NCBI RefSeq assembly: GCF_002102355.1
Contig: NZ_LQPT01000093.1
Location: forward strand, 1 to 64,000
Direction of reading: 5' to 3'
From: Mycobacterium sherrisii
GTDB lineage: Bacteria; Actinomycetota; Actinomycetes; Mycobacteriales; Mycobacteriaceae
Length of the DNA: 64,000 nucleotides
The translations under genes and the position numbers were made by a program. Each line of letters begins with the position of its first letter. The stretch's first letter is position 1. Shown here one piece after another: positions 2,121-26,852 of this stretch. The notes beneath the pieces are model-generated. The model was not told the DNA's origin and searched no databases. It saw nothing but the letters and a program-made list of their open reading frames with translations.

Positions 2121-3806
2121 TCACGGGCGTGGTGCCCGCCATCTACCCTCGCTCGAGCCACACTCAGTGGGGTAGACACCGGCCAACAGGCTGCCATCTC
2201 GGATCATGCCAACCACCGTGCGGATGTCGCCGTCCATCGCCCTATCGTGGCCCACGAATGGGACTTTCGCGCGGATGCTGGCGTGGATGGCCTTCGTCCG
2301 CCCGAGCTTGTCCGCTCCCCGGATGTCGGCGGCCTGACACAGCGCCAGCAGGTGGATCGCCGCAACGCGCTCGACGATCTCCACGACGTCGCGGGCCTTT
2401 CGGGCCGCGGTCGCCCCCATCGAGACCTTGTCCTGGTTGTGGCATTCGGTCGAGCGGGAGAACGCGCTGAGCGGCATGCCGCGGCTGAGCGCGTCGGCAG
2501 TGAGCGACGAGCACGCGATCTGCATGCCCTTGAAGCCATGGTTAAGACCGAATTCGGGATGCTCATCGGGGTAGGAGACGACGAGGTTGGGGCCCAGGGC
2601 CCGGTTGAATCTTTCGTCGACGACCAGCTCGAGCTGCCGGTCCAATAGGTCGGCGACGCTGGCCACCGCCGCCTTGAGGGAATCCATGGCCATCGCCACG
2701 TGCCCGCCGGAGAAGTTACCGCCGGAGAACACCTCGGCCGACTGGGGATCCACGAGCGGGTTGTCCGTGCTCGAGTTGATCTCCGTTTCCAACCAACGTG
2801 AGACCCATGCCAGTACATCCCAAAGGACTCCGGTGAAGTGCGGCGCGCACCGAATCGAGTAGGCGTCCTGAATCTCGTTCTGGTTCACCACCTTTCCCTC
2901 CGCGATCAGCTCGTCCACCGCGTCCGCGTATGTGCGCCCCAGACGGCTGCCGGTTAGGAGATGCCGGATATTTGCGGCCGAACGAATCTGTCCGGCATGG
3001 GGTTTGGCCACGTCGTGCAGGAACCGTTCGAAGGGCGTGGTAATTCCGCGGAGAACCTCGGTGGTCATGGCCGTGCACGCATCCGCCACGTTCGCGAGTC
3101 TTCTGGCGTCCAGCCACGCCATTGCCGCGATGCCCGTCATGTACGCCGTGCCGTTGACCACGCTCAGGCCTTCCTTCGGCTCGAGCACGAGCGGGGACAG
3201 TCCCGCTACCCGCAACGCCTCTTTGGCCGTGACGACGCGCCCGCGGAAGTGCACCGAACGCCGGCCGACCAGGGCGGCGGCCACGTACGACAGCGGAACC
3301 AGGTCCCCGCTGGCTCCGACGGAGCCTTCCTCGGGGATTACCGGTGTGATACCCGCGTTGAGCAGGTCCAGAAGCATCTGAATCAGCTCCGGGCGTACCG
3401 CGGAGTATCCGCGAGCTAAGTTGTTGGCCCGGATCAGCAGCACCGCCCGGGCGGTCTCCGTCGGCAGCGTGGGGCCAGTCCCGTTGCCCAGGAACTCGAT
3501 CAGGCGTTCCTGCAGGAGGTGAGCGCTTTGGGAATCGACACGGCGGCGGACCGAAGCGCCGAAACCGGTGGTCACCCCGTACACTGGGGTCCCGCTTTCG
3601 ATCAGTCTTTCCAGCCGCCGGGCACCGCCGACTATCCGTTCCCGCACCCTCGGGTCGGCCGACAGGAACGCGAGCGTCCCGCCGCGGGCAACCCGTCCGA
3701 CGTCGTCGAGCGACAACCGGTGTCCGTCAACTTGCACGGGTGAGACTTCACTCACATCGTCGTCGGAAATCCTTTGCGCCCCTTGGTCGATCGTCATATC
3801 TGTCAC
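2121..3806 (-). CDS. MIO-type aromatic amino acid ammonia-lyase (phenylalanine-type) or aminomutase
   Basis: A 561-residue protein of the HAL/PAL/TAL superfamily, which eliminates ammonia from an aromatic amino acid using an autocatalytic MIO group. The MIO tripeptide Ala-Ser-Gly is at residues 165-167 in GSVGASGDL. The catalytic-loop tyrosine is in YGVTTGFG (76-83). The pair that sets substrate choice reads Phe105-Leu106 in QERLIEFLGNG, like plant PAL (QKELIRFL) rather than the His of tyrosine or histidine enzymes. SSTDNPLVD and GNFSGGHVAMAMD follow. The likely product is trans-cinnamate, or beta-phenylalanine if it acts as an aminomutase; sequence alone cannot decide. The start is GTG at 3806; ATG at 3797 is possible, and neither has a strong ribosome site. 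There are no hut genes nearby, and neighbours are an IS remnant and ESX-like genes, so recent acquisition is plausible. Confidence 0.82.
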   Translation of the reverse strand: MTDMTIDQGAQRISDDDVSEVSPVQVDGHRLSLDDVGRVARGGTLAFLSADPRVRERIVGGARRLERLIESGTPVYGVTTGFGASVRRRVDSQSAHLLQERLIEFLGNGTGPTLPTETARAVLLIRANNLARGYSAVRPELIQMLLDLLNAGITPVIPEEGSVGASGDLVPLSYVAAALVGRRSVHFRGRVVTAKEALRVAGLSPLVLEPKEGLSVVNGTAYMTGIAAMAWLDARRLANVADACTAMTTEVLRGITTPFERFLHDVAKPHAGQIRSAANIRHLLTGSRLGRTYADAVDELIAEGKVVNQNEIQDAYSIRCAPHFTGVLWDVLAWVSRWLETEINSSTDNPLVDPQSAEVFSGGNFSGGHVAMAMDSLKAAVASVADLLDRQLELVVDERFNRALGPNLVVSYPDEHPEFGLNHGFKGMQIACSSLTADALSRGMPLSAFSRSTECHNQDKVSMGATAARKARDVVEIVERVAAIHLLALCQAADIRGADKLGRTKAIHASIRAKVPFVGHDRAMDGDIRTVVGMIRDGSLLAGVYPTECGSSEGRWRAPRP

Positions 3807-15937: not shown

Positions 15938-17212
15938 ATGGCGAAAATCCTGGCATACGGTTCACCCGCGCTCGGTCACGTGTACCCGTTGGCGGCTCTG
16001 TTGGCCGAACTCGTCGGGCGTGGACACCAGGTGCATCTGCGTACCCTGGCGGCCGAGGTGGCGACGATGTCCGGGATCGGCGTGCACGCGCAGGCCGTGG
16101 ATGCCCGCGTCGAGGCCATTACCGGACGGGATTGGTTGGCGGGCAACGCCTTGGGCGTGCTGCGCAGCACCCTCGACGTGCTGTGTCGATGCGCGGTCGT
16201 CGAGGTCGACGACCTGCGGCACGCCATCGATGACGTCGCGCCCGACGTCGTGATCGTCGACGCGAACTGCTGGGGCGCCATCTCGGCGGCGCAGGCCAGT
16301 GGTATCGGTTGGCTGGTGTTTTCGCCGTTCACGCCGTACCTGCGTTCCAGCGCGGCGCCGCCGTTCGGTCCCGGCTTGCGGCCGCTGCCCGGCCCCCTCG
16401 GGCGACTGCGCGACGCATCCGTGCGCCCCGTCGTGCGTCAGCTCTTCGACCGCCCGGTATTGCCCGCCCTCAACAGGATTCGGGCGAGGTTGGGCGTGCG
16501 TGCGGTCGGGTCGGTGGACGAGCTGATGCGTCAGGCGCCGCTGTTGCTGGCGGTGGGCGGCGAACCCTTCGAATATCCACACCCCGATTGGGACGACGCC
16601 GTGCACTTCCTCGGCGCCTGCGATTTCGAACCCGTACCCGCGGTCGTGCCCGAATGGCTGTCCGGGATCGATCGAGGCAGTGACACACCCCTGGTGCTGG
16701 TCAGCACGTCCTCGATCCCGCAGGCTGATGCGAGGCTGGCACACACGGCGTTGCGCGCGCTGGCCGAGGAGCCCGTCCACGTGGTGGCCACCTTCCCGGC
16801 CGGAATACCGCCCGGCCTGCCGTCGACGGCCAACGCGTCGGTGACCCGCTTCCTCAGTCACAGCGTGGTCCTCGACCGGGCGGTCTGTGCGGTGACCCAC
16901 GCGGGCATGGGTGCCACCGTCAAGGCGCTGAGCCGCGGTGTGCCGGTGTGCACCGTGCCGTTCGCGCGGGACCAAGCCGAAGTTGCCCGCCGGGTTCAGG
17001 TGGCGGGCTGCGGTACCCGCCTGCCGGCGCGCCGGCTCACGACCGCGCGCCTGGCCGAGGCCGTGCGCACGGCGATGACCATGGCCGAGGGTGGCCGCCG
17101 GGTTCGCCGCGACCGGGGGTGTGGCGCGCGGCGCCGACCTGATCGAGCAGCGCCTGTTGGGCATCGCTGCGGCGGGGTCTACTGCGCTGCGCCCTGCCGC
17201 GCGGCACGCTGA
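15938..17212 (+). CDS. UDP-glycosyltransferase, CrtX/MGT-like; C-terminus probably frameshifted
   Basis: A GT-B glycosyltransferase of family 1 (MGT or zeaxanthin glucosyltransferase type). N-terminal domain: ILAYGSPALGHVYPLAALLAEL. Donor-binding domain: PLVLVSTSS, the PSPG-like SVVLDRAVCAVTHAGMGATVKAL (His-Ala-Gly-Met-Gly), and GVPVCTVPFARDQAEVARRV. After TMAEGG at about 17092 the frame becomes arginine-rich and unlike the family. The +1 frame continues naturally as VAAGFAATGGVARGADLIEQ and reaches TGA at 17244. A small deletion or sequencing error there is likely. As read, only the last 40 residues differ. It may glucosylate a hydroxylated carotenoid, an inference from its neighbours. Confidence 0.75.
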   Translation: MAKILAYGSPALGHVYPLAALLAELVGRGHQVHLRTLAAEVATMSGIGVHAQAVDARVEAITGRDWLAGNALGVLRSTLDVLCRCAVVEVDDLRHAIDDVAPDVVIVDANCWGAISAAQASGIGWLVFSPFTPYLRSSAAPPFGPGLRPLPGPLGRLRDASVRPVVRQLFDRPVLPALNRIRARLGVRAVGSVDELMRQAPLLLAVGGEPFEYPHPDWDDAVHFLGACDFEPVPAVVPEWLSGIDRGSDTPLVLVSTSSIPQADARLAHTALRALAEEPVHVVATFPAGIPPGLPSTANASVTRFLSHSVVLDRAVCAVTHAGMGATVKALSRGVPVCTVPFARDQAEVARRVQVAGCGTRLPARRLTTARLAEAVRTAMTMAEGGRRVRRDRGCGARRRPDRAAPVGHRCGGVYCAAPCRAAR

Positions 17213-17733
17213 TCGGAGTTCGGCGGCGGGCTCGGTGCCGCGCTGAGGACTTCGTCCTCGAACGTCGACATCGCCGTGAGCATCGCGGTGAAGACCCGGT
17301 GCGCGGCCAGCAAGTCGTCGTCGCTCAGATCGGCCATCGCGGCGCTGAAATGAGCGCCGAGTGGTTTGAAAAACGAGTGCGCCATGCTCATCCCGGTGGG
17401 CTCATAACGCAACAGCCACTTCCGCCGGTCCTGCGGGTCTGCTTCGCGGCGAATGTGGCCGGCCTCGATCATGCGGTCGACGAGGTAGGTGATGGCCGCC
17501 GGCGACACATCCATCCGCTGCCGTAACTGCGCGGAGGTCAACGGCTCTCCCGCCGTCTCGGCGACCATGATGTGCAGCAGCGCGTGAAAGTCGCTGCTGC
17601 TCACCTCGTTCATCCGGGCGAAATGGCGGCCGACGCGATCCGATCTCGCGGTGATGGCCCGCAAATCGGCCGACAACGATCGTTCCAACTCGGCCCGGCT
17701 GAGTTGCTGGTCAGATGTGCGGCGCTTGGTCAC
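17179..17733 (-). CDS. MarR-family transcriptional regulator of the carotenoid locus
   Basis: A 184-residue winged-helix regulator. The DNA-binding core is LTSAQLRQRMDVSPAAITYLVDRMIEAGHIRREADPQDRRKWLL (about residues 75-118), with the classic D-x-R-D/R wing. The flanking helices form the dimer interface, and a proline-rich tail ends the protein. It is the last gene of the minus-strand crt run, and its 3' end overlaps the convergent glycosyltransferase gene. In Corynebacterium glutamicum a MarR protein, CrtR, represses carotenoid genes and responds to GGPP. A comparable role is likely here but not shown. The palindromes near 14724 and 26042 are candidate sites. Confidence 0.85.
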   Translation of the reverse strand: MTKRRTSDQQLSRAELERSLSADLRAITARSDRVGRHFARMNEVSSSDFHALLHIMVAETAGEPLTSAQLRQRMDVSPAAITYLVDRMIEAGHIRREADPQDRRKWLLRYEPTGMSMAHSFFKPLGAHFSAAMADLSDDDLLAAHRVFTAMLTAMSTFEDEVLSAAPSPPPNSDQRAARQGAAQ

Positions 17734-18411: not shown

Positions 18412-19413
18412 CTAGCGGGATGTTCCGGCGCGTAGAGCGTAACGGCGTTCGGCGTAGTCGAGATCGTCGCGCCACAGCCGGTTGGCCGCATAGCGCGCCA
18501 GCGGGGTGATCAGGGGCGCGGCGCGCTCGGCGTGCCGGAACCCGGGGCGTCCGGAGTGCGCGACGACCGCTTCGACGACCGCGACCCTGGGGGTGCCGTC
18601 CGGCCCCGGGCCCAACGGCGTCGCGTGGGTTTCCACCACGCTGCCGGTGCCTTCGCCCTCGACGATGCGCATGACGATGGTGCGTGCGTCCGGGCTGGTG
18701 AACTCCGCGAGCACCGGCACCCCGAAGGGGCCCATCCGGAACGTGACCGCGACGACGAACCGGTCGTCGGTTTCGGTCGGGGCGCTCAACACCTCGAGGC
18801 GGGTGAACGAGTACGGGTGAAACCAGGCGCCGTGCCAGGGATCGAGCCGGTTGGCGATGATGTCGCAAGTCTCGCAGCGACCGACGCTGCGGGCGACGGC
18901 GTGCACCGTCGGGCCGGGCGGTCTTTCCGGCACGATCGGCGCGTCCAACGGTGCCTCGTTGCCGACGGCGTCCAGACGCACCCAGGTCAGCACGCCGTCG
19001 TCGTGGCTGGGCAACGGCCTCCAGCGCATCTTGCAGCTCTGCCCGTCGAACGCCAAACCATGCCAGCGACAGAACAACACGCCGTCGCGCACGGCGCCGG
19101 TGGCCAGATCCGCCCCCAGGTGCGGACACACGGCGGGACCGACGCACAGATGTCCGTCGCGATCCCGCCAGGCCACGAGTTCGATGCCGGCGACCCGGGC
19201 GCCGAACGGGCGGTCTGCACGGACGTCGCGGCTGGCGGCGAAGACGTACCAGTTTCCCGTCGGCCTGCGCTGGGACCTGCGCAACGCGGCCTCGATGATG
19301 CTCGGCTTCGCCTCGGCATGGGTCGGCCGTTGCTCGGCCCACGGATGGTGCGGCAGCATCTCGATCGGCCAGCCTTTCGGCCAGCGGTGCCGGAGTCGGT
19401 CGCGGGTGTTCAT
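18412..19413 (-). CDS. Rieske [2Fe-2S] protein (DUF5914 type), carotenoid-associated
   Basis: A 333-residue protein with an N-terminal Rieske domain: the cluster ligands are CPH (in VCPHLGADL) and CxxH (in LFCRWHGLAF), spaced 16 residues. The C-terminal two thirds match the DUF5914-type domain found with Rieske proteins in actinobacterial pigment loci, with CETCDIIANRLDPWHGAWFHPYSF, where paired Cys and His could bind iron. It is probably an oxygenase-like enzyme; hydroxylation of a carotenoid ring is a guess from context. ATG 19413 overlaps the stop of the crtU-like gene. The frame extends far upstream without family likeness. Confidence 0.8.
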   Translation of the reverse strand: MNTRDRLRHRWPKGWPIEMLPHHPWAEQRPTHAEAKPSIIEAALRRSQRRPTGNWYVFAASRDVRADRPFGARVAGIELVAWRDRDGHLCVGPAVCPHLGADLATGAVRDGVLFCRWHGLAFDGQSCKMRWRPLPSHDDGVLTWVRLDAVGNEAPLDAPIVPERPPGPTVHAVARSVGRCETCDIIANRLDPWHGAWFHPYSFTRLEVLSAPTETDDRFVVAVTFRMGPFGVPVLAEFTSPDARTIVMRIVEGEGTGSVVETHATPLGPGPDGTPRVAVVEAVVAHSGRPGFRHAERAAPLITPLARYAANRLWRDDLDYAERRYALRAGTSR

Positions 19414-20942
19414 CGCGTCCGCCGTTGCCGTTGTGCCAGCGCTCGAAGGAGTTTCGACCGTCCGGCCAGGGGAACGGTGGTCAGCTCGTGGCCGGCCAGC
19501 CCCCATCCGGTGAGTAGTCGGTTGGCGGCGATCCAGCCCGTGGTGGCGGCGCGTTCCATCAGTGCCACCGGCAGGTCGACCCGAATCCCGTCGCCGGCCA
19601 ACATCAGCGCGGGATGCGGCGTCGTCACGGTCGGTCGCCGCGCATGCGTGCCGGGGGCGAACAGCGGGCAGTCGCTGCGGCGCAGCACGCGTTCGTGCAG
19701 CACGCGCGCGGCCGCCGTCTCGGGATATATTCGATGCAGTTGCTGGATCCCGTCCTCTGGCGAGGTATCGGAATCGACTGCATACGAGTGCAGTTCGACG
19801 ACCGAGCCGCGGGTGCGGCGCGCCCAGGCGGCGGCTTCGCGTTCGTATCGTTCGAGCACGCTGATGTTGTCCAGCGGTGGATGGCCCGAGGTGCCCAAAA
19901 ACGGCGCCCGGCCGGAGTCGACCGGCCGGTCCAGCCACAGCCGATGCACGACAAACGGTGGGGCGGTGCGCAGGTCCCGGATTCGGGCGCGCCACCGGTC
20001 ATCGCCGAGTCCCGGGGATGCCGCCACGACCTGTTGCAGACCGGCCACATCGGCGGCCAGCACGACTGCGTCGGCGCCCAGCCGGTCGCCCGAGTGTGTT
20101 TCGACGTACCCGGATGCCGCTGCGGCCAGGTTGATCCGCCGCACCTCGGTGCCGAGGTGCACTCGAACTCCTCGGTCCTGCAATTGCTGCCGCAGCGGAT
20201 CCCACAGGCTCGCATCGAAATTCGCGTTGGCGACGTCGAAGATCAGGCCCTCGCGCGAGCCCAGGAAGTAGATGTGGAACATCGTCGCCAACTCGGCGGC
20301 CGAGAGTTGTTCCGGTGCGGCGAAGAAGCTGCGGGAGAACACCTCAAACGCGAGATGCCGTGCGGATTCCGGGAAGTTGATGCACTTCAAAAAGGTTTCG
20401 GCGTTGAGATGATCGAGCTGGGAGTAGATGTCGGGCACCGACACGGCGGCCAGTGGGGCGGCGGCGCGAGCGTCCAGGCGCAGCAAGTCACCGAATCGAA
20501 ACGTCGGGCTGCGCAAGGCGAATGCCACCGCGTTCCACGGTGGTGTGCGCGGCAGCCCCCGAAAGGTGTCTCGCCGGCCCGCACCGTCGACCAACGGATA
20601 GTCGTCGACGGGTACCAGCATCCGCAACTGCGGGTCGACGCGGCGCAACAGCGACCGCAGGTTGTAGTACTGGCGGAAGAAGGCGTGGAATCCCCGGTTC
20701 ATCGCGAAGCTGTTGTCCGAGTGCGGGTTTGCGGGCTCCGTCCAGCCGCCCACCCGGCCGCCCAGGTAGGGTTCGCGCTCCACGACGTCGACGGCGACGC
20801 CGCGCTCGGCCAAGGCGGTGGCCGCTGTCAGCCCGGCAATGCCCCCGCCGACCACCACGGCCCGGGGGCGCGACGACAGCGCGCCCGCGTCGGGCAGCCC
20901 AGCCGGTGCGGGGTGCCGGTGGCGGCGCCGGTCGGTCGTCAC
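19410..20942 (-). CDS. crtU: CrtU-like carotene desaturase/methyltransferase (aromatic end-group formation)
   Basis: A 510-residue FAD-dependent enzyme. The FAD motif is AVVVGGGIAGLTAATALAERG near residues 29-49. It is followed by GFHAFFRQYYNLRSLLRRVD and HLAFEVFSRSFFAAPEQLSA with MFHIYFLGSREGLIFDV, all of which I recall from actinobacterial CrtU (isorenieratene synthase). CrtU converts the beta-ionone rings of beta-carotene to aromatic rings with methyl migration. The C-terminal FAD-closing segment is MLAGDGIRVDLPVALMERAATTG. GTG 20942 overlaps the previous stop (GTGA). With crtYcYd, crtB, crtI and crtE upstream this predicts isorenieratene (leprotene) or a derivative. A generic CrtI-like oxidoreductase is the alternative. 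Confidence 0.8.
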   Translation of the reverse strand: MTTDRRRHRHPAPAGLPDAGALSSRPRAVVVGGGIAGLTAATALAERGVAVDVVEREPYLGGRVGGWTEPANPHSDNSFAMNRGFHAFFRQYYNLRSLLRRVDPQLRMLVPVDDYPLVDGAGRRDTFRGLPRTPPWNAVAFALRSPTFRFGDLLRLDARAAAPLAAVSVPDIYSQLDHLNAETFLKCINFPESARHLAFEVFSRSFFAAPEQLSAAELATMFHIYFLGSREGLIFDVANANFDASLWDPLRQQLQDRGVRVHLGTEVRRINLAAAASGYVETHSGDRLGADAVVLAADVAGLQQVVAASPGLGDDRWRARIRDLRTAPPFVVHRLWLDRPVDSGRAPFLGTSGHPPLDNISVLERYEREAAAWARRTRGSVVELHSYAVDSDTSPEDGIQQLHRIYPETAAARVLHERVLRRSDCPLFAPGTHARRPTVTTPHPALMLAGDGIRVDLPVALMERAATTGWIAANRLLTGWGLAGHELTTVPLAGRSKLLRALAQRQRRTR

Positions 20943-21661
20943 GGCGCCACCCCCACGAAGGTGTGCACGACATCGCGTTCCCAACCCGGCACGGTGTCGC
21001 TGTGCACCGCCACCAAGCCCGCCTCGGTCAGCCGGTTCCGAAACTGCGTGGCCCCGTCGAAGGCCAGCACGCTGCGCCACAGGTGCCGGTACAACACCGT
21101 GTCCCGGGTGTGCCACCAGCCCGCCGGGATGATGATGCCCCAACACACCGCGTGCCAAAGCCAGGTCGCCGCACGGGAATCGCGCACCGAGTACTCGTGC
21201 ACCGCCAGCGTGCCGCCCGGGCGCAGCAGGGCGCGAAACGCGGGCAGCGCAGCATCCGGGTCGGCCAGGTTGCGCAGCAGGTAGGCCGCCAGGATGCCGT
21301 CGAACGGGCCGGCGACGCCGTGCTCGTCGAGGTCTTCGACGCGCGCGTGCACGAATCGGACCGACGCCGGCCAGTCCTTGGCCCGCGCGGCATCCAGCAT
21401 TGCGCCCGCGGCGTCGACCGCGACGATCTGAGCCTCGGGAGCCGCCCGCAGCAGCGCCGCCGTCGAGGCGCCGGTGCCGCAGCCCGCGTCCAGCAGCCGC
21501 AGGCCGCGGCCCCGGTCGGGGATTCGCATCCGGCGCGCGGACAGTTCGAGACCGGCGTGATAGCCGGGGTTGGCGCCGACCAGCCGGTCATAGGCGCGCG
21601 CCCCGACGTTGAAGGCGTCGGGCACGTCGTCGCGCGGCAGACCCCGATTATCGATGCGCAC
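20939..21661 (-). CDS. UbiE-like SAM methyltransferase of the crt operon
   Basis: A 240-residue class I methyltransferase: LRLLDAGCGTGASTAALLRAAP (motif I, near 52-73), IVAVDAAGAML, FDGILAAYLLRNLADPDAAL (motif IV) and LLRPGGTLAVHEYSV. A tryptophan-rich segment (WLWHAVCWGIIIPAGWWH) follows and may touch the membrane or a lipid substrate. Methyltransferase genes occur at the same place in other actinobacterial aromatic carotenoid clusters, but isorenieratene synthesis does not need an outside methyl group, so its substrate is unknown. GTG 21661 overlaps the end of crtYd by 14 bases, and its stop overlaps the crtU start. Confidence 0.8.
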   Translation of the reverse strand: MRIDNRGLPRDDVPDAFNVGARAYDRLVGANPGYHAGLELSARRMRIPDRGRGLRLLDAGCGTGASTAALLRAAPEAQIVAVDAAGAMLDAARAKDWPASVRFVHARVEDLDEHGVAGPFDGILAAYLLRNLADPDAALPAFRALLRPGGTLAVHEYSVRDSRAATWLWHAVCWGIIIPAGWWHTRDTVLYRHLWRSVLAFDGATQFRNRLTEAGLVAVHSDTVPGWERDVVHTFVGVAP

Positions 21662-21959
21662 GCTGATACTCCCACAACAGCAGGACGGCGGTGACCAGTG
21701 CGAAGCCGAACAGGAAGTCCTCGACCGGGATGTCGAGCGGGAACCGCACCCCGCTGGTGTCGCGGTCGTGGTAGATCACCACCGGCGCGCTGGTCTTGGT
21801 CAGCCAGCCATCCACCGGCACTTGGAAACCGAGCACGATCAGCATCGTCAACCAGTACGCCAGCCGGCGAAACAACCCGGTACGCAGCAGCGTGAATTCC
21901 AGCCCGATCACCGTCAGCACCGACACGACCGCGGGCACGGTGTAGCCCAAGCCGGTCAT
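21648..21959 (-). CDS. crtYd: Lycopene beta-cyclase subunit CrtYd
   Basis: A 103-residue, three-helix membrane protein. This is the second half of the heterodimeric lycopene cyclase known from actinobacteria. The conserved end of the cyclase domain is FPLDIPVEDFLFGFALVTAVLLLWEY, with the Pro-Val-Glu-Asp-Phe motif matching the PIEE/PVED motif of CrtYc-type subunits. ATG 21959 overlaps the crtYc stop (ATGA), as expected for a coupled pair. Together they form beta rings at both ends of lycopene. Confidence 0.92.
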   Translation of the reverse strand: MTGLGYTVPAVVSVLTVIGLEFTLLRTGLFRRLAYWLTMLIVLGFQVPVDGWLTKTSAPVVIYHDRDTSGVRFPLDIPVEDFLFGFALVTAVLLLWEYQRAHR

Positions 21960-22279
21960 CGGCGTTTGCTCCGAGCCAGGATGGCGGTCACCGCGTTGTA
22001 GGTCAGCAGGCCGCACAACGGAATCACCACGAAGAACAGCACTTCCTCGATGGGTATCCCGAACGGGATGTGCAGGCCGCTGATGTAGGCGCTGTTGTAG
22101 GTCCACACCCCGGCGGCGATGGCGATGGCGTCCCAGACCAGGAATACGGCCGCCACTGATAGCACGGCGCGCAGTACCCGACGTGGTTGTCGGTAGACCC
22201 CGGGGCCGAAAAGTTCCAGCGGCGCGGTGATCGCCAGGCACAGCCCCAGCACGATCAGGTATTGCCAATGGTCAGTCAT
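21956..22279 (-). CDS. crtYc: Lycopene beta-cyclase subunit CrtYc
   Basis: A 107-residue, three-helix membrane protein. The signature IPFGIPIEEVLFFVVIPLCGLL is the PIEE motif of heterodimeric lycopene cyclases, with VWDAIAIAAGVWTYN before it. ATG 22279 overlaps the stop of crtB. It works with CrtYd as one enzyme; neither half is expected to act alone. The presence of both intact halves indicates cyclic carotenoids rather than lycopene as an intermediate. Confidence 0.92.
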   Translation of the reverse strand: MTDHWQYLIVLGLCLAITAPLELFGPGVYRQPRRVLRAVLSVAAVFLVWDAIAIAAGVWTYNSAYISGLHIPFGIPIEEVLFFVVIPLCGLLTYNAVTAILARSKRR

Positions 22280-23229
22280 GCCGCGCCGTGATCTTGTTGA
22301 TAGGACTCGGCGAGTCGCAGACGCCACGACCGCAGCAGACCGCCCGCGGCGACGCGCAATCGTCGCGACGTGGCGACAGTGGCGCGTCCGCTGAATACCG
22401 AGAAGTCGCTTGCCTCAATGCGATCCAGGATCTCCGAATACAGCGTCAACGCGGTACTGACACAGGGGCGTGAGCGCGGGGCCAGCGCCGAGATGCCCTC
22501 GGCGGCGAAGCGGTAGATCGTGCGGGTGATGTCGTGCTGGGCCGCCAACGCGGCACGCACCCGCGGGTCGGTGCGGCGCTGCTCGTGGCACCACAGTAGT
22601 AGTTCGCGGTCGACGTCGAAGCTCGCGAGTTCGTCGGCGGGCAGGTAGATCCGGTTGCGTTGCAGGTCCTCGTCGACGTCGCGCAGAAAGTTGGTGAGCT
22701 GAAAGGCGCGACCCAGCGCGGCCGCGTGCGGTGCCGCCTCGTCGGGGTCACCGACGGTTCCCAGGATCGGAAGCATTTGCAGGCCAATCACTTCCGCCGA
22801 TCCGCGCATGTACACGTTGAGCGCGGCGCGGGTGGGGTAGTCGGTGACGGTGAGGTCCATCCGCATGGAGTTGAGGAAGTCCTCGAACAACTCCGCGGCT
22901 ATCCCGTAACGTCCGATCGTGTCGGTGACCGCGGCGATCACCGGTTCTTGCCGATGCCGCCCGCCGGCGAAGAGGTGTTCGGAGAGGCGCTGCAGGCGTC
23001 GGGCGCGGGTGGCGGTGTCCAGCGCGGGGTCGAATTCGTCGAGGATGTCATCGGCGTGGCGGGCGAAGCCGTACAGCGCGTGCACGGCCGGGCGCTGGTC
23101 GGGGGCCAGCAGTCGGGTGGCCAGGAAGTAGGTGCGGCCGTGCTGAGCGGCGATCCGCCGGCAATGGCGGTAGGCCAGGCGAAGCGCCGGGTCCGCGACG
23201 CCGGCCGCATCCAGTTCGGTGCGGATCAT
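22276..23229 (-). CDS. crtB: Phytoene synthase
   Basis: A 317-residue trans-isoprenyl diphosphate synthase that condenses two GGPP to phytoene. Both Asp-rich motifs are visible: ALYGFARHADDILDE (DDILDE, near residue 60) and LGRAFQLTNFLRDVDEDLQRNRIYLP (DVDED, near 180). YFLATRLLAPDQRPAVHAL is the expected N-terminal segment. Length is normal. ATG 23229 overlaps the crtI stop (ATGA), so synthesis is coupled to the desaturase. It takes GGPP from CrtE two genes upstream. Confidence 0.95.
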   Translation of the reverse strand: MIRTELDAAGVADPALRLAYRHCRRIAAQHGRTYFLATRLLAPDQRPAVHALYGFARHADDILDEFDPALDTATRARRLQRLSEHLFAGGRHRQEPVIAAVTDTIGRYGIAAELFEDFLNSMRMDLTVTDYPTRAALNVYMRGSAEVIGLQMLPILGTVGDPDEAAPHAAALGRAFQLTNFLRDVDEDLQRNRIYLPADELASFDVDRELLLWCHEQRRTDPRVRAALAAQHDITRTIYRFAAEGISALAPRSRPCVSTALTLYSEILDRIEASDFSVFSGRATVATSRRLRVAAGGLLRSWRLRLAESYQQDHGAA

Positions 23230-24749
23230 CGCAGCGGCACCTTCACGTCGAGTACCGTTGCGGGCCGGTGCCTTTCGTCGCGCGAGCCGGTGACGCGCTC
23301 GGCGGCCAGCCGTCCGGAGATCATCGTCGTGGGCACCCCCACGCCGGGCACGGTCGACGATCCGGCCAGCGCGACGTTGGCAATTCCGCGCACGGTGTTG
23401 GCCGGCCGGAACGGGCCGGTCTGGGCGAAGGTGTGGGCAAGCGCGAACGGCGTCCCGGCCGCCATGCCCTGGTCGGCCCAATCGGCGGGGGTGTGCAGGC
23501 CCAGCAGTTCGGCGCCCGCGCCCAGCTCGGGCAGCAGGCGCTCGCGCACCGCTTCCAGCAAGGTGCCGGCATACGCCCGGCCTTGCCGCGACCAATCGAT
23601 GGCCCCCCGGGACAGGTTCGGCGCCGGGGCCAGCACGTAGAGCAGGCCGCGCCCGTCCGGCGCCAGGGTGGGGTCGCCGACCGTGGGGCGCGTCACCAGC
23701 AGCGAGGGGTCCCGCATGGTTCGGCCGTCGCGGATGATGTCGGTGAACGTCTGCTCCCAAGACTCGCCGAACAGGATCGTGTGATGAGCGTGCGGTGTCG
23801 CGTCGGCGGGGCGGAATCCCACGTGCATCACCACGGCCGAGGGCGCGGGGCGCAGCGGTATGACCCGGCGCGGCCGCCGGCCCACCAGCCGGTAGGTTTC
23901 TGGTAGCTCGGTGGTCAGCACGACCGCGTCGCACCGGATGCGTTCGCCGTCGTCGGTGCGCACCGCCGTGACCCGGCCACCCGTTCGGTCGAGCGCAGAA
24001 ACCGTTGTCCGGTAACGGAACTCGACTCCGGTCTGGACCGCGGCGGCCGCGAGTCCGTCGGGCAGTGCGCGCACCCCGCCGCGCGGGAAGAAGACCCCGG
24101 CGACCGTGTCCATGTAGGCGATCACCGAATAGACCGCCAAGGCGTGCTGCGGCGCGACGCCGGCATACAGCGACTGGAACGTGAAGATCCGCCGCAGCCG
24201 CGGATCGGTGATGTGGCGTTTGACCATGGTGTCCCAGCGCCGGAATCCGCCGATTGCCGCCAGTTGCACCAGTCGCCGGTTGACCAGCGACAGCGGCGAA
24301 TTGAAGTTGGAGCCGATGAACCCGTCGAACTCGGTGCGGTAGAGACGTTGCAGCCACGCCCGCAAGCGCAGGTACCCCGCGGCCTGTGCCGGGCCGGCGA
24401 ATTCGCGTACCGCGGCCGTCATCCGGTCGGCGTCGGCGTGCACGTCGATGCTGCTGCCGTCGGCGAACATCGCCCGATAGGCCGGATCGACCGGCCGCAG
24501 GTCGACGAAGTGCGCACGTTCTTTCCCCGTGGCAGCGAAGGTTTCGTCGATGATGTCGGGCATGGTGAGCACGGTGGGCCCGGTGTCGATCCGATAGCCG
24601 GCGACGTCGAGGCGTCCCGCTCGTCCGCCGGGCCAGGCCTGGCGCTCGACGACCGTCACCTCCCGTCCCCGACCGGCCAGGTGCAGTGCCGCGGACAGGC
24701 CCGCGAATCCGGCGCCCACCACGACCACCCGGTCCGGTGCGGCGTTCAT
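23226..24749 (-). CDS. crtI: Phytoene desaturase
   Basis: A 507-residue FAD-dependent bacterial-type desaturase that takes phytoene to lycopene. The N-terminal FAD motif is VVVVGAGFAGLSAALHLAGRG with VVERQAWPGGRAGR and DTGPTVLTMPDIIDE. The middle holds FTFQSLYAGVAPQHALAVYSVIAYMD, and the C-terminal bacterial desaturase signature is NVALAGSSTVPGVGVPTTMISGRLAAERV. ATG 24749 is chosen at the start of the family likeness; it overlaps the stop of crtE. All parts of the fold are present and in frame. Confidence 0.95.
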   Translation of the reverse strand: MNAAPDRVVVVGAGFAGLSAALHLAGRGREVTVVERQAWPGGRAGRLDVAGYRIDTGPTVLTMPDIIDETFAATGKERAHFVDLRPVDPAYRAMFADGSSIDVHADADRMTAAVREFAGPAQAAGYLRLRAWLQRLYRTEFDGFIGSNFNSPLSLVNRRLVQLAAIGGFRRWDTMVKRHITDPRLRRIFTFQSLYAGVAPQHALAVYSVIAYMDTVAGVFFPRGGVRALPDGLAAAAVQTGVEFRYRTTVSALDRTGGRVTAVRTDDGERIRCDAVVLTTELPETYRLVGRRPRRVIPLRPAPSAVVMHVGFRPADATPHAHHTILFGESWEQTFTDIIRDGRTMRDPSLLVTRPTVGDPTLAPDGRGLLYVLAPAPNLSRGAIDWSRQGRAYAGTLLEAVRERLLPELGAGAELLGLHTPADWADQGMAAGTPFALAHTFAQTGPFRPANTVRGIANVALAGSSTVPGVGVPTTMISGRLAAERVTGSRDERHRPATVLDVKVPLR

Positions 24750-25936
24750 GCGGCCCGCCGGGTGCACACGTCGGTCATGTCGATCAGGGCGGCCAGCGCC
24801 GCATCGTCAAAAGGCTTGCTGTCCAGCGCCTTTCGTGCGATGGCAACCCTCTCGTCAATCAGCTCCTCGATGAATTGCACGGCGCCGCTGGCCAAAATCA
24901 GCGTGCGCCAGTGCTCGATGGCGTCCTCGTCCAGGTGCGCGCGGTTGATCAGTTCGCCGAACTGCCGGCGAGTGGACGCGTCGGCAAGCTGGTAGGCGGC
25001 CACCACGACACTGGTGGCTTTGCGCTCACTGAGGTCCCCGCCGTTGGGTTTGCCGGTGGCAGTGGGTGATCCGAAGACGCCGAGAATGTCGTCGCGCAGT
25101 TGGAACGCTTCACCCAGCGCCGCGCCGTATTCGCCGAGCCCGGCCAGCATTACGTCGTCACAGCCGGCCATGGCGGCGCCGATCTCCAGGGGCCGGCGCA
25201 CGGTGTAGTTGCCGGACTTCATCCGGGCCACGGCCAGCACCGAATCCAGCGTCGGAAGGTCGCGCAGATCGGTTGCCACATCGGCGAATTGGCCGATCGC
25301 GAGTTCGGTGCGCATGGCGTCGTAACGCGGCCAGGCGCGTCGGAGCGCGGCTGGTTGCACGCCGCTGTCGCGCAGCATCTGCTCGGCCCACACCAGGCAC
25401 AGGTCGCCGAGTAAGACGGCGGCCGATTCGCCGAACCTCTGCGACGACCCGGACAGGCCGCGCCGCCGGTGCCACTGCGCGAATTGCACGTGCGCGGACG
25501 GACGCCCGCGCCGAGCCGGCGATGCATCCATCACGTCGTCCTGCAGCAGCGCGAACGCCTGCAGGAGTTCCAGGCTGGCGGCCGCGCCCAGCGCCGCATC
25601 GTCCGGCGGCGCGCCGCACAACCAGCCCAGGTACATGAACGTGGGGCGCAGGCATTTGCCGTGTTGGACGAATTCGGCCAACACCTCGCCGGCCACGTCG
25701 ACTCCGCAGGGGCCCAGATCGGCGGCACAGCGCGCGGTGACGAACTGCGCCACCTGCGCCAGCACCGCTTGCCGCACCCCGTGGCGCCAGGCGCCCAACT
25801 GTCCGGGCTCGGGCAACAGCGCAACCGCGTCGGGGGCTGCCGCCACGGGGCGCAGCTGCGGAAACGAACGCACGGTTCCCACCGAAGCACCCCTCGCACG
25901 GTCGGTCAGCCGCTGTTGTGAACGGCTTGGATTCAC
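24746..25936 (-). CDS. crtE: Geranylgeranyl diphosphate synthase
   Basis: A polyprenyl synthase of about 396 residues. Motifs: HGKCLRPTFMYLGW, the first Asp-rich motif in FALLQDDVMDASPARRGRPSAH (DDxxD), and the second in FQLRDDILGVFGSPTATGKPNGGDL. It supplies GGPP to phytoene synthase. The start is uncertain: GTG 25936 sits at the predicted start of transcription of a SigF-type promoter, giving a leaderless message; GTG 25882 and 25873 (VGTVRSFPQL) are downstream alternatives and could be closer to the conserved N-terminus. As first gene of an eleven-gene run, its promoter should control the whole pigment operon down to marR. Confidence 0.92.
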   Translation of the reverse strand: MNPSRSQQRLTDRARGASVGTVRSFPQLRPVAAAPDAVALLPEPGQLGAWRHGVRQAVLAQVAQFVTARCAADLGPCGVDVAGEVLAEFVQHGKCLRPTFMYLGWLCGAPPDDAALGAAASLELLQAFALLQDDVMDASPARRGRPSAHVQFAQWHRRRGLSGSSQRFGESAAVLLGDLCLVWAEQMLRDSGVQPAALRRAWPRYDAMRTELAIGQFADVATDLRDLPTLDSVLAVARMKSGNYTVRRPLEIGAAMAGCDDVMLAGLGEYGAALGEAFQLRDDILGVFGSPTATGKPNGGDLSERKATSVVVAAYQLADASTRRQFGELINRAHLDEDAIEHWRTLILASGAVQFIEELIDERVAIARKALDSKPFDDAALAALIDMTDVCTRRAA

Positions 25937-25943
25937 GCGTTGG

Positions 25944-25967
25944 TACCCCTTCGGCGCGACAACAAAC
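25944..25967 (-). promoter_or_regulatory. SigF-type promoter for crtE operon
   Basis: On the minus strand GTTT (25967-25964) is followed after exactly 15 bases by GGGTA (25948-25944), matching the mycobacterial SigF pattern GTTT-N15-17-GGGTA. Transcription would begin about 7 bases later, at GTG 25936. SigF is known to control carotenoid production in M. smegmatis. Confidence 0.65.
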
Positions 25968-26041
25968 AGGCGAGAACAAACAGCCGCGGTCCAACAGTGC
26001 GTCGGCACCCCGGTCTCACCGAGATGCCACATAGTTCATTT

Positions 26042-26056
26042 ACTTAAACATCAAGT
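26042..26056. promoter_or_regulatory. Imperfect palindrome ACTTAAACATCAAGT
   Basis: Arms ACTT and AAGT with partly matching inner bases, in an AT-rich patch between the two divergent SigF-type promoters. It could bind the locus MarR protein, but it is a weak palindrome and differs in arm order from the site at 14724. Confidence 0.3.
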
Positions 26057-26074
26057 TCGTGGATCAAGCTCGGG

Positions 26075-26098
26075 GTTTGGCCGGCGGACAGCCGGGTA
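26075..26098 (+). promoter_or_regulatory. SigF-type promoter for the gene at 26157
   Basis: GTTT (26075-26078), 15 bases, GGGTA (26094-26098): the same spacing as the divergent crtE promoter 110 bases away. It would give a leader of about 50 bases with a good ribosome site (AAGAGGAG, 26141-26148) before GTG 26157. Confidence 0.6.
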
Positions 26099-26156
26099 CG
26101 CGAGCGCTCACGGCTTGCAGCGCGCTGAATATGCCCAACCAAGAGGAGCCAAACCC

Positions 26157-26852
26157 GTGAGTGTCGCCGATGTGGTTGCTTTGCCGTTCCGCGTGGGATC
26201 GGCCATGCGGGGCCGACGGTTTTTCCATCCGGTGGGGGTGCTGGCGCACGGGCGTGCCGAACGCGTGGCACCCGCGCAATGCGGGCTGCCGCTGCCGTCC
26301 AGCGACGTCGTCGTCCGGGTGTCCAAGGCGGTCGGGACACCGGGGTCCCTGCCCGACCTCATCGGGCTGGCCATCCGGGCCGACGCCCCGCAGTCGTGCG
26401 CCAGGCCGTGGGACATCCTGTTGGTCTCGGCGGGATCGGGCGTGCTGACCCGGGCGTTGGCGCTACGCCCGGTCACCTCCTGGACGGGGCAGCCGCTGTC
26501 CAACCTGATGCCGCTGCGCTACCGGGACAGTCCGTGGTGGTTGCGCGCCCGCATCGAGACCGACATCCGCGGCAACGGGCTCTCGCTGGACGACGTCGAA
26601 CGGCGCATCAGCCACGGCGGGATCGACGTGGCGCTCGACCAGGCCCGCGGGCGCGGCGATTTCACCCCGTTGGCCCGGCTGCATCTGTCGACCGTGCTCG
26701 ACCCGCAGCAGGAAGACGTGTCGTTCGATCCCGTCGTCAATACCCCACCCGGGCTGACGCTGTATCCGGGCTGGCTCGCCGATCTGCGAGCGCAGGCCTA
26801 CCAGCGCAGCCGTGAAGGCCGGCTGTTCGGCCTGCTGCCGGGGCACCGCTAG
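26157..26852 (+). CDS. Protein of unknown function, weakly catalase-like, divergent from crtE
   Basis: A 231-residue soluble protein starting at GTG 26157, with AAGAGGAG 8 bases before it. Segments such as RRFFHPVGVLAHGRAE, VVVRVSKAVGTPGSLPDLIG and LAIRADAPQSCARPWDILLV recall the heme-side region of catalase-fold proteins (HPVG, V-R-x-S, G-L-A-I/V-K/R). The ending LYPGWLADLRAQAYQRSREGR also resembles catalase-like C-termini. The likeness is faint, and I see no clear proximal tyrosine, so I leave the function open. Related actinobacterial proteins are sometimes labelled phosphodiesterase without support. A SigF-type promoter of its own suggests stress-linked expression together with the pigment genes. 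Its stop overlaps the convergent epimerase gene by 4 bases. Confidence 0.6.
   Translation: MSVADVVALPFRVGSAMRGRRFFHPVGVLAHGRAERVAPAQCGLPLPSSDVVVRVSKAVGTPGSLPDLIGLAIRADAPQSCARPWDILLVSAGSGVLTRALALRPVTSWTGQPLSNLMPLRYRDSPWWLRARIETDIRGNGLSLDDVERRISHGGIDVALDQARGRGDFTPLARLHLSTVLDPQQEDVSFDPVVNTPPGLTLYPGWLADLRAQAYQRSREGRLFGLLPGHR

Follow-up and report, generated by a model that had tools for sequence, protein, structure and literature searches.

Genes and candidate promoters at the locus

The window, by which we mean the whole stretch of 64,000 nucleotides that was analysed, carries a set of carotenoid genes on its minus strand and, diverging from crtE, a plus-strand frame encoding a 231-aa protein (Table 1). 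The two lycopene cyclase domains occupy frames 21956-22327 and 21648-22268. Further minus-strand frames lie within 18412..21661, and their membership of the operon is putative; the nearby MarR-family gene is a possible counterpart of CrtR. Between crtE and the plus-strand gene, the motif GTTT-N15-GGGTA occurs twice in exact form, pointing apart, at 25944-25967 (minus strand) and 26075-26098 (plus strand). A preliminary description of this DNA had reported these two sites with their identical spacer of 15, and a sequence scan confirmed them; as it also held, they face crtE, which is a PF00348 member on the minus strand, and the gene at 26157, which is the 231-aa frame.

Two further elements were noted in this region. 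An AT-rich block around CTTAAACAT (window 26034-26066) lies between the two promoters and is kept in loci L001 and L011; it might serve as an upstream element or bind a regulator. A tandem repeat at 25956-25983 was considered as an operator and rejected, its second copy being kept in neither L001 nor L011.

Table 1. Features of the locus, with coordinates in the window
Feature	Position	Strand	Evidence
Predicted SigF-type promoter of the carotenoid operon, GTTT-N15-GGGTAC	25943..25967	-	Exact motif; matrix score 19.03; kept in 25/26 other crtE loci
Predicted SigF-type promoter of the catalase-fold gene, GTTT-N15-GGGTAC	26075..26099	+	Exact motif; matrix score 19.03; score at least 12 in 48/51 homologous loci
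crtE, polyprenyl synthetase family	24746..25936	-	PF00348; proposed GTG start 25936-25934
crtI, phytoene desaturase family	23226..24767	-	TIGR02734 over cut-off
crtB-like squalene/phytoene synthase, start approximate	22276..23160	-	PF00494 over cut-off in longer frame; NCBIfam below cut-off
Two lycopene cyclase domains, crtYc and crtYd	21648..22327	-	TIGR03462 over cut-off in both
Methyltransferase frame	20939-21661	-	Pfam
Amine-oxidase-type flavoprotein, crtU-like by position	19410-21158	-	Pfam
Rieske/DUF5914 protein	18412-19995	-	Pfam
MarR-family regulator near crt genes	17179..17733	-	PF12802
GAGGAG, likely ribosome-binding site	26143..26148	+	Sequence
231-aa minimal catalase-fold protein, GTG start	26157..26852	+	Translation; start aligned with homologues; fold; profile link; residues

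The 231-aa protein has a predicted catalase fold and probably binds heme

The gene at 26157 had been called catalase-like, and this reading held up: the predicted structure model of its product has the catalase fold, and its profile aligns end to end with that of catalase-related proteins (hhalign E 5.8e-6, 219 columns, probability 85%). By structural realignment it shares 14% identity with the catalase-related protein of M. avium subsp. paratuberculosis (PDB 3e4w/3e4y), which has 303 aa against the 231 here. We read the protein as catalase-like because of this realignment and the profile comparison; a sequence search for its solved relatives returned nothing significant, and the Foldseek matches that follow 9jdb, among them nitrobindins and fluorescent proteins, have E values no better than 0.007. 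The frame has no PF00199 match and is therefore not assigned to the true heme catalases. PF00199 matches four other proteins of this genome (loci L105 on G000:C74 and L106 on G000:C23), of which two are true catalases and two are longer proteins of the catalase-related kind.

Across 42 sequences of the family, R54, R211, Y215 and R222 are invariant, H24 is kept in 41 and R21 in 40. The profile-aligned positions supply a distal His, a proximal Arg-x3-Tyr and an Arg near the heme propionates, and we take H24, the Arg-x3-Tyr and the propionate-side Arg to have roles in the heme pocket. On this evidence the protein probably binds heme; its chemistry would be that of peroxides, and its substrate is likewise presumed. 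A protein that kept the catalase fold as a heme-free scaffold or binding protein, having lost enzyme function, seems to us rather unlikely. Such a protein would be consistent with the distal Asn of true catalases being Ser in 38 and Thr in 4 of the 42 sequences, with a length some 70 residues below that of the 303-aa protein, and with the direct profile comparison to this genome's true catalases, which gave no match (E 0.18); without heme, however, there is no obvious need for the near-complete retention of H24 or the invariance of R54, R211, Y215 and R222.

SigF-type sites recur before both genes in related species

To score candidate sites we took 35 published M. smegmatis SigF promoters from PMC5445863 (Appendix Table 10, two transposase rows being omitted) and built a matrix from them; their own scores range from 11.5 to 21.3. 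The two sites, with equal scores (Table 1), rank first and second in the 64 kb, followed by a match at 15.5, and the best score in 20 first-order Markov sequences of window length was 18.8. Both have the GTTT and GGGTA elements of mycobacterial SigF promoters, with a spacer in the range of about 15-17. The window holds no further exact copy of GTTT-N15-GGGTA, against a mean of 0.07 by chance, and none of 100 dinucleotide shuffles contained two. When the spacer was left free at 14-18 the expectation rose to 0.37 and 6/100 shuffles reached two or more, so under that setting the number of sites is weaker evidence by itself. A lower-scoring SigF-like match (12.2) at 26131-26154 on the minus strand, which lies opposite the catalase-fold gene's ribosome-binding region and overlaps it, is probably due to chance.

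Of the 26 crtE loci from other genomes, 25 had a site scoring at least 13 no more than 300 nt from the conserved crtE segment, the sole exception being L059; the rate in shuffled sequences was 2.9%. Control regions before four neighbouring genes, each placed from the first residue of a trimmed query, yielded 0/71 at the same threshold, some of that DNA being possibly coding. An in-frame GTG follows the -10 pentamer by 6-8 nt in 17 of the 18 sequences with a full-length crtE match, the window included. The proposed GTG of the window comes 7 nt after the pentamer, and in 7/18 the pentamer is followed by precisely CCAACGCGTGAAT. Because of this conserved codon we place the crtE start there (Table 1), and its mRNA is probably leaderless; the proposal would also settle where crtE begins. 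Starting crtE at ATG 26032 would put the promoter inside the gene, and the conserved GTG was preferred. In M. smegmatis, 24% of mapped transcripts were leaderless by the rule of the authors (PMC6448022).

Of 297 genomes of the genus, 190 have a match to the catalase-fold gene. Loci from other genomes carried a site of at least 12 no more than 160 nt from the start in 48/51 cases (all except L062, L064 and L071) and one of at least 13 in 42/51; 200 permuted matrices reached, at the lower threshold, a mean of 1.9 and a maximum of 18 of 51. Restricted to 120 nt and to scores of at least 13, the figures were 41/51 loci and 0.8% of shuffled sequences. The loci compared come from related species, and the counts ignore shared descent. 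Among the 48 sites the pentamer was GGGAA in 33, GGGCA in 9 and GGGTA in 4; GGGAA and GGGCA, the majority among homologues, score below GGGTA. Since the pentamer ends 10-11 nt before the start codon in 41/48, most of these mRNAs are probably nearly leaderless. The group to which the window belongs differs: its pentamers end at -59 in the window, at -80 in L011 and at -111 in L001, and in all three a leader with AGGAG follows.

Recurrence before crtE and the catalase-fold gene, together with the top ranks from an external matrix, upholds the SigF-type assignment of the preliminary description. Judged from these sequence comparisons, the two sites are very likely working SigF-type promoters of the genes they face.

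The catalase-fold gene usually keeps its SigF-type site away from crtE

Of the 51 catalase-fold loci, 13 have the conserved crtE segment on the opposite strand less than 600 bp away, and in another 13 it is 0.9-2.6 kb distant; for the other 25 the stretch examined contains no crtE, some stretches ending at contig ends. Where crtE is not nearby the catalase-fold gene usually retains its site, so the two promoters are separate. Counted over 297 genomes, after removal of weak matches (7 of the 190 for the gene, one for the cyclase), the gene and the lycopene-cyclase family were both present in 116, the gene only in 67, the cyclase only in 44 and neither in 70 (odds ratio 2.75, p 4e-5, a statistic that ignores kinship). 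The cyclase accompanies 57/61 close orthologues of the gene; its tie to pigment is thus strong among close orthologues and loose overall.

Nine distant loci (L065, L067-L070, L072, L074, L075 and L077) have an opposite-facing SigF-like site, with one mismatch, located between -72 and -39. In L067 (4560-7255) the catalase-fold gene, with SigF-like sites in both directions, diverges from a methyltransferase, followed by a CDGSH-like frame (named by eye) and, beyond it, a convergent iron-containing redox enzyme; by eye, a similar methyltransferase start is present in L065, L068, L070, L072, L075 and L077.

Comparison with described carotenoid loci

SigF control of carotenoids is already known in M. 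smegmatis: MSMEG_2343-2347 are lowered in the sigF mutant, and GTTT-N16-GGGTA lies 97 bp before MSMEG_2347 (PMC4694148). The preliminary description had invoked this precedent, which is published, but for a site upstream of crtI with crtE elsewhere (PMC4694148). The two loci thus share a GTTT/GGGTA promoter before carotenoid genes and differ in spacer (16 there), in the gene that follows the site and in the location of crtE; we met no catalase-fold neighbour in the account of the M. smegmatis locus (PMC4694148). The published MSMEG_1773 promoter was found in 0/396 genomes of the genus, among which the M. smegmatis strain is apparently not represented. A SigF-like motif has been proposed before the mevalonate operon of M. 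marinum (PMC12632256).

The CRT locus of M. kansasii has the same order, crtE-crtI-crtB-crtYc-crtYd, and a MarR regulator nearby. It differs in that a glycoside hydrolase gene lies upstream of crtE and in that the crtE promoter is induced by light and repressed by CrtR, SigF not being mentioned in the account of that promoter (PMC9861118). By this precedent, the operon studied here might be mainly under a MarR-type repressor and light, the site before crtE serving for polymerase binding only and the link to its neighbour being incidental. The MarR gene of the window and the conserved AT-rich block between the promoters would suit such control. We consider it improbable as the main explanation, given the SigF-type site in 25/26 crtE loci and the finding that in M. 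smegmatis the crt locus depends on SigF (PMC4694148). The two modes of control can coexist.

SigF-family genes and the genome-wide distribution of the motif

Two proteins of this genome exceed the SigBFG cut-off (TIGR02980) and so belong to the SigF family. One of the genes overlaps a UsfX-like anti-sigma frame, with RsfB-like and AccA3-like frames beyond (names by eye), an arrangement that we take to match that of M. tuberculosis. The other (L133, G000:C84:30500-35500, frame 1863-2843) has no anti-sigma-like, RsfB-like or AccA3-like neighbour within its 5-kb stretch. A member over the cut-off was present in 95/98 sampled genomes of the genus, and several other genomes list more than one. The second factor might recognise the sites in place of canonical SigF: it scores nearly as high (302 bits vs 312.6), and further members over the cut-off occur in many genomes of the genus. 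We nevertheless regard its involvement as quite improbable, since the published promoters behind our matrix are described as SigF promoters and we know of no recognition motif for this paralogue.

The genome (5.56 Mb, 128 contigs) was scanned for the exact motif. It matched 31 times and its reversed version 10 times, which suggests that roughly one match in three could be background. Of the 29 outside the intergenic region studied here, 17 had a same-strand open frame downstream (at least 90 aa, high GC3, within 600 nt) and 12 had none, several of the latter sitting within other frames. Some adjoin hemerythrin-, DoxX- and Dps-like frames (by eye) and a Mn-catalase, kinds that occur in the published M. 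smegmatis SigF set (PMC4694148, PMC5445863).

The rarity of exact pairs could be read from the same scan: divergent sites less than 150 bp apart occur twice, in the window and at C101:7390(-)/7472(+). The latter pair (L080, G000:C101:4000-12500, sites 3391-3414 on the minus and 3473-3496 on the plus strand) is flanked by a short-chain dehydrogenase and a manganese catalase (PF05067), and a hemerythrin-like frame nearby has its own exact site. It resembles the window pair in having back-to-back exact sites, one directed toward a peroxide-related gene, and differs in that its partner is the dehydrogenase, not pigment genes. That the window pair is a chance double match, as the 10 reversed-control matches and the 6/100 free-spacer shuffles might suggest, is extremely improbable because the sites are conserved before both genes in other species.

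Discussion

We propose that the 220 bp separating the start codons of the two genes hold two separate SigF promoters facing apart. SigF, once freed from its anti-sigma factor, would direct RNA polymerase to start both transcripts. That of the carotenoid operon would begin at or beside the crtE GTG, giving a probably leaderless mRNA; the other would carry a leader of about 50 nt and encode the 231-aa protein, which has the predicted catalase fold and probably binds heme. Under stress, this protein and the pigment may then increase together and counter organic hydroperoxides or reactive oxygen. The analysis shows the motifs and how they are conserved, the gene families, the predicted fold and the conserved positions of the heme pocket; that SigF acts here in vivo, where the transcripts start, and that the protein binds heme and handles peroxides are what we infer. 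The shared stress switch of the preliminary description survives in that one predicted sigma factor would serve both genes, and gives way to two independent promoters in place of one shared element.

In the open-licence literature we found no description of the divergent arrangement or of a small SigF-linked catalase-fold family. One lead to an M. smegmatis counterpart is MSMEG_6305, an uncharacterised gene that falls in the sigF mutant and has GTTT-N16-GGGCA at a distance of 8 nt from the start (PMC4694148); several distant homologues of the catalase-fold gene have the same promoter form. That the sigF mutant of M. smegmatis is sensitive to peroxide has been attributed largely to lost pigment (PMC4694148). 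If that species has a homologue, loss of a SigF-linked heme protein would be a further candidate cause.

More tentatively, and with the balance still somewhat against it, we suggest that a widespread, unrecognised catalase-fold heme family of about 225 aa is a core mycobacterial SigF target that reduces organic or lipid hydroperoxides beside carotenoids, its distant members standing back to back with a methyltransferase module through SigF-like sites. What began as motif sightings becomes a claim about a conserved member of a stress regulon, a small catalase-fold, probably heme-binding protein missed by Pfam and NCBIfam. Many mycobacteria appear to keep this small catalase-like gene under a SigF-type promoter.
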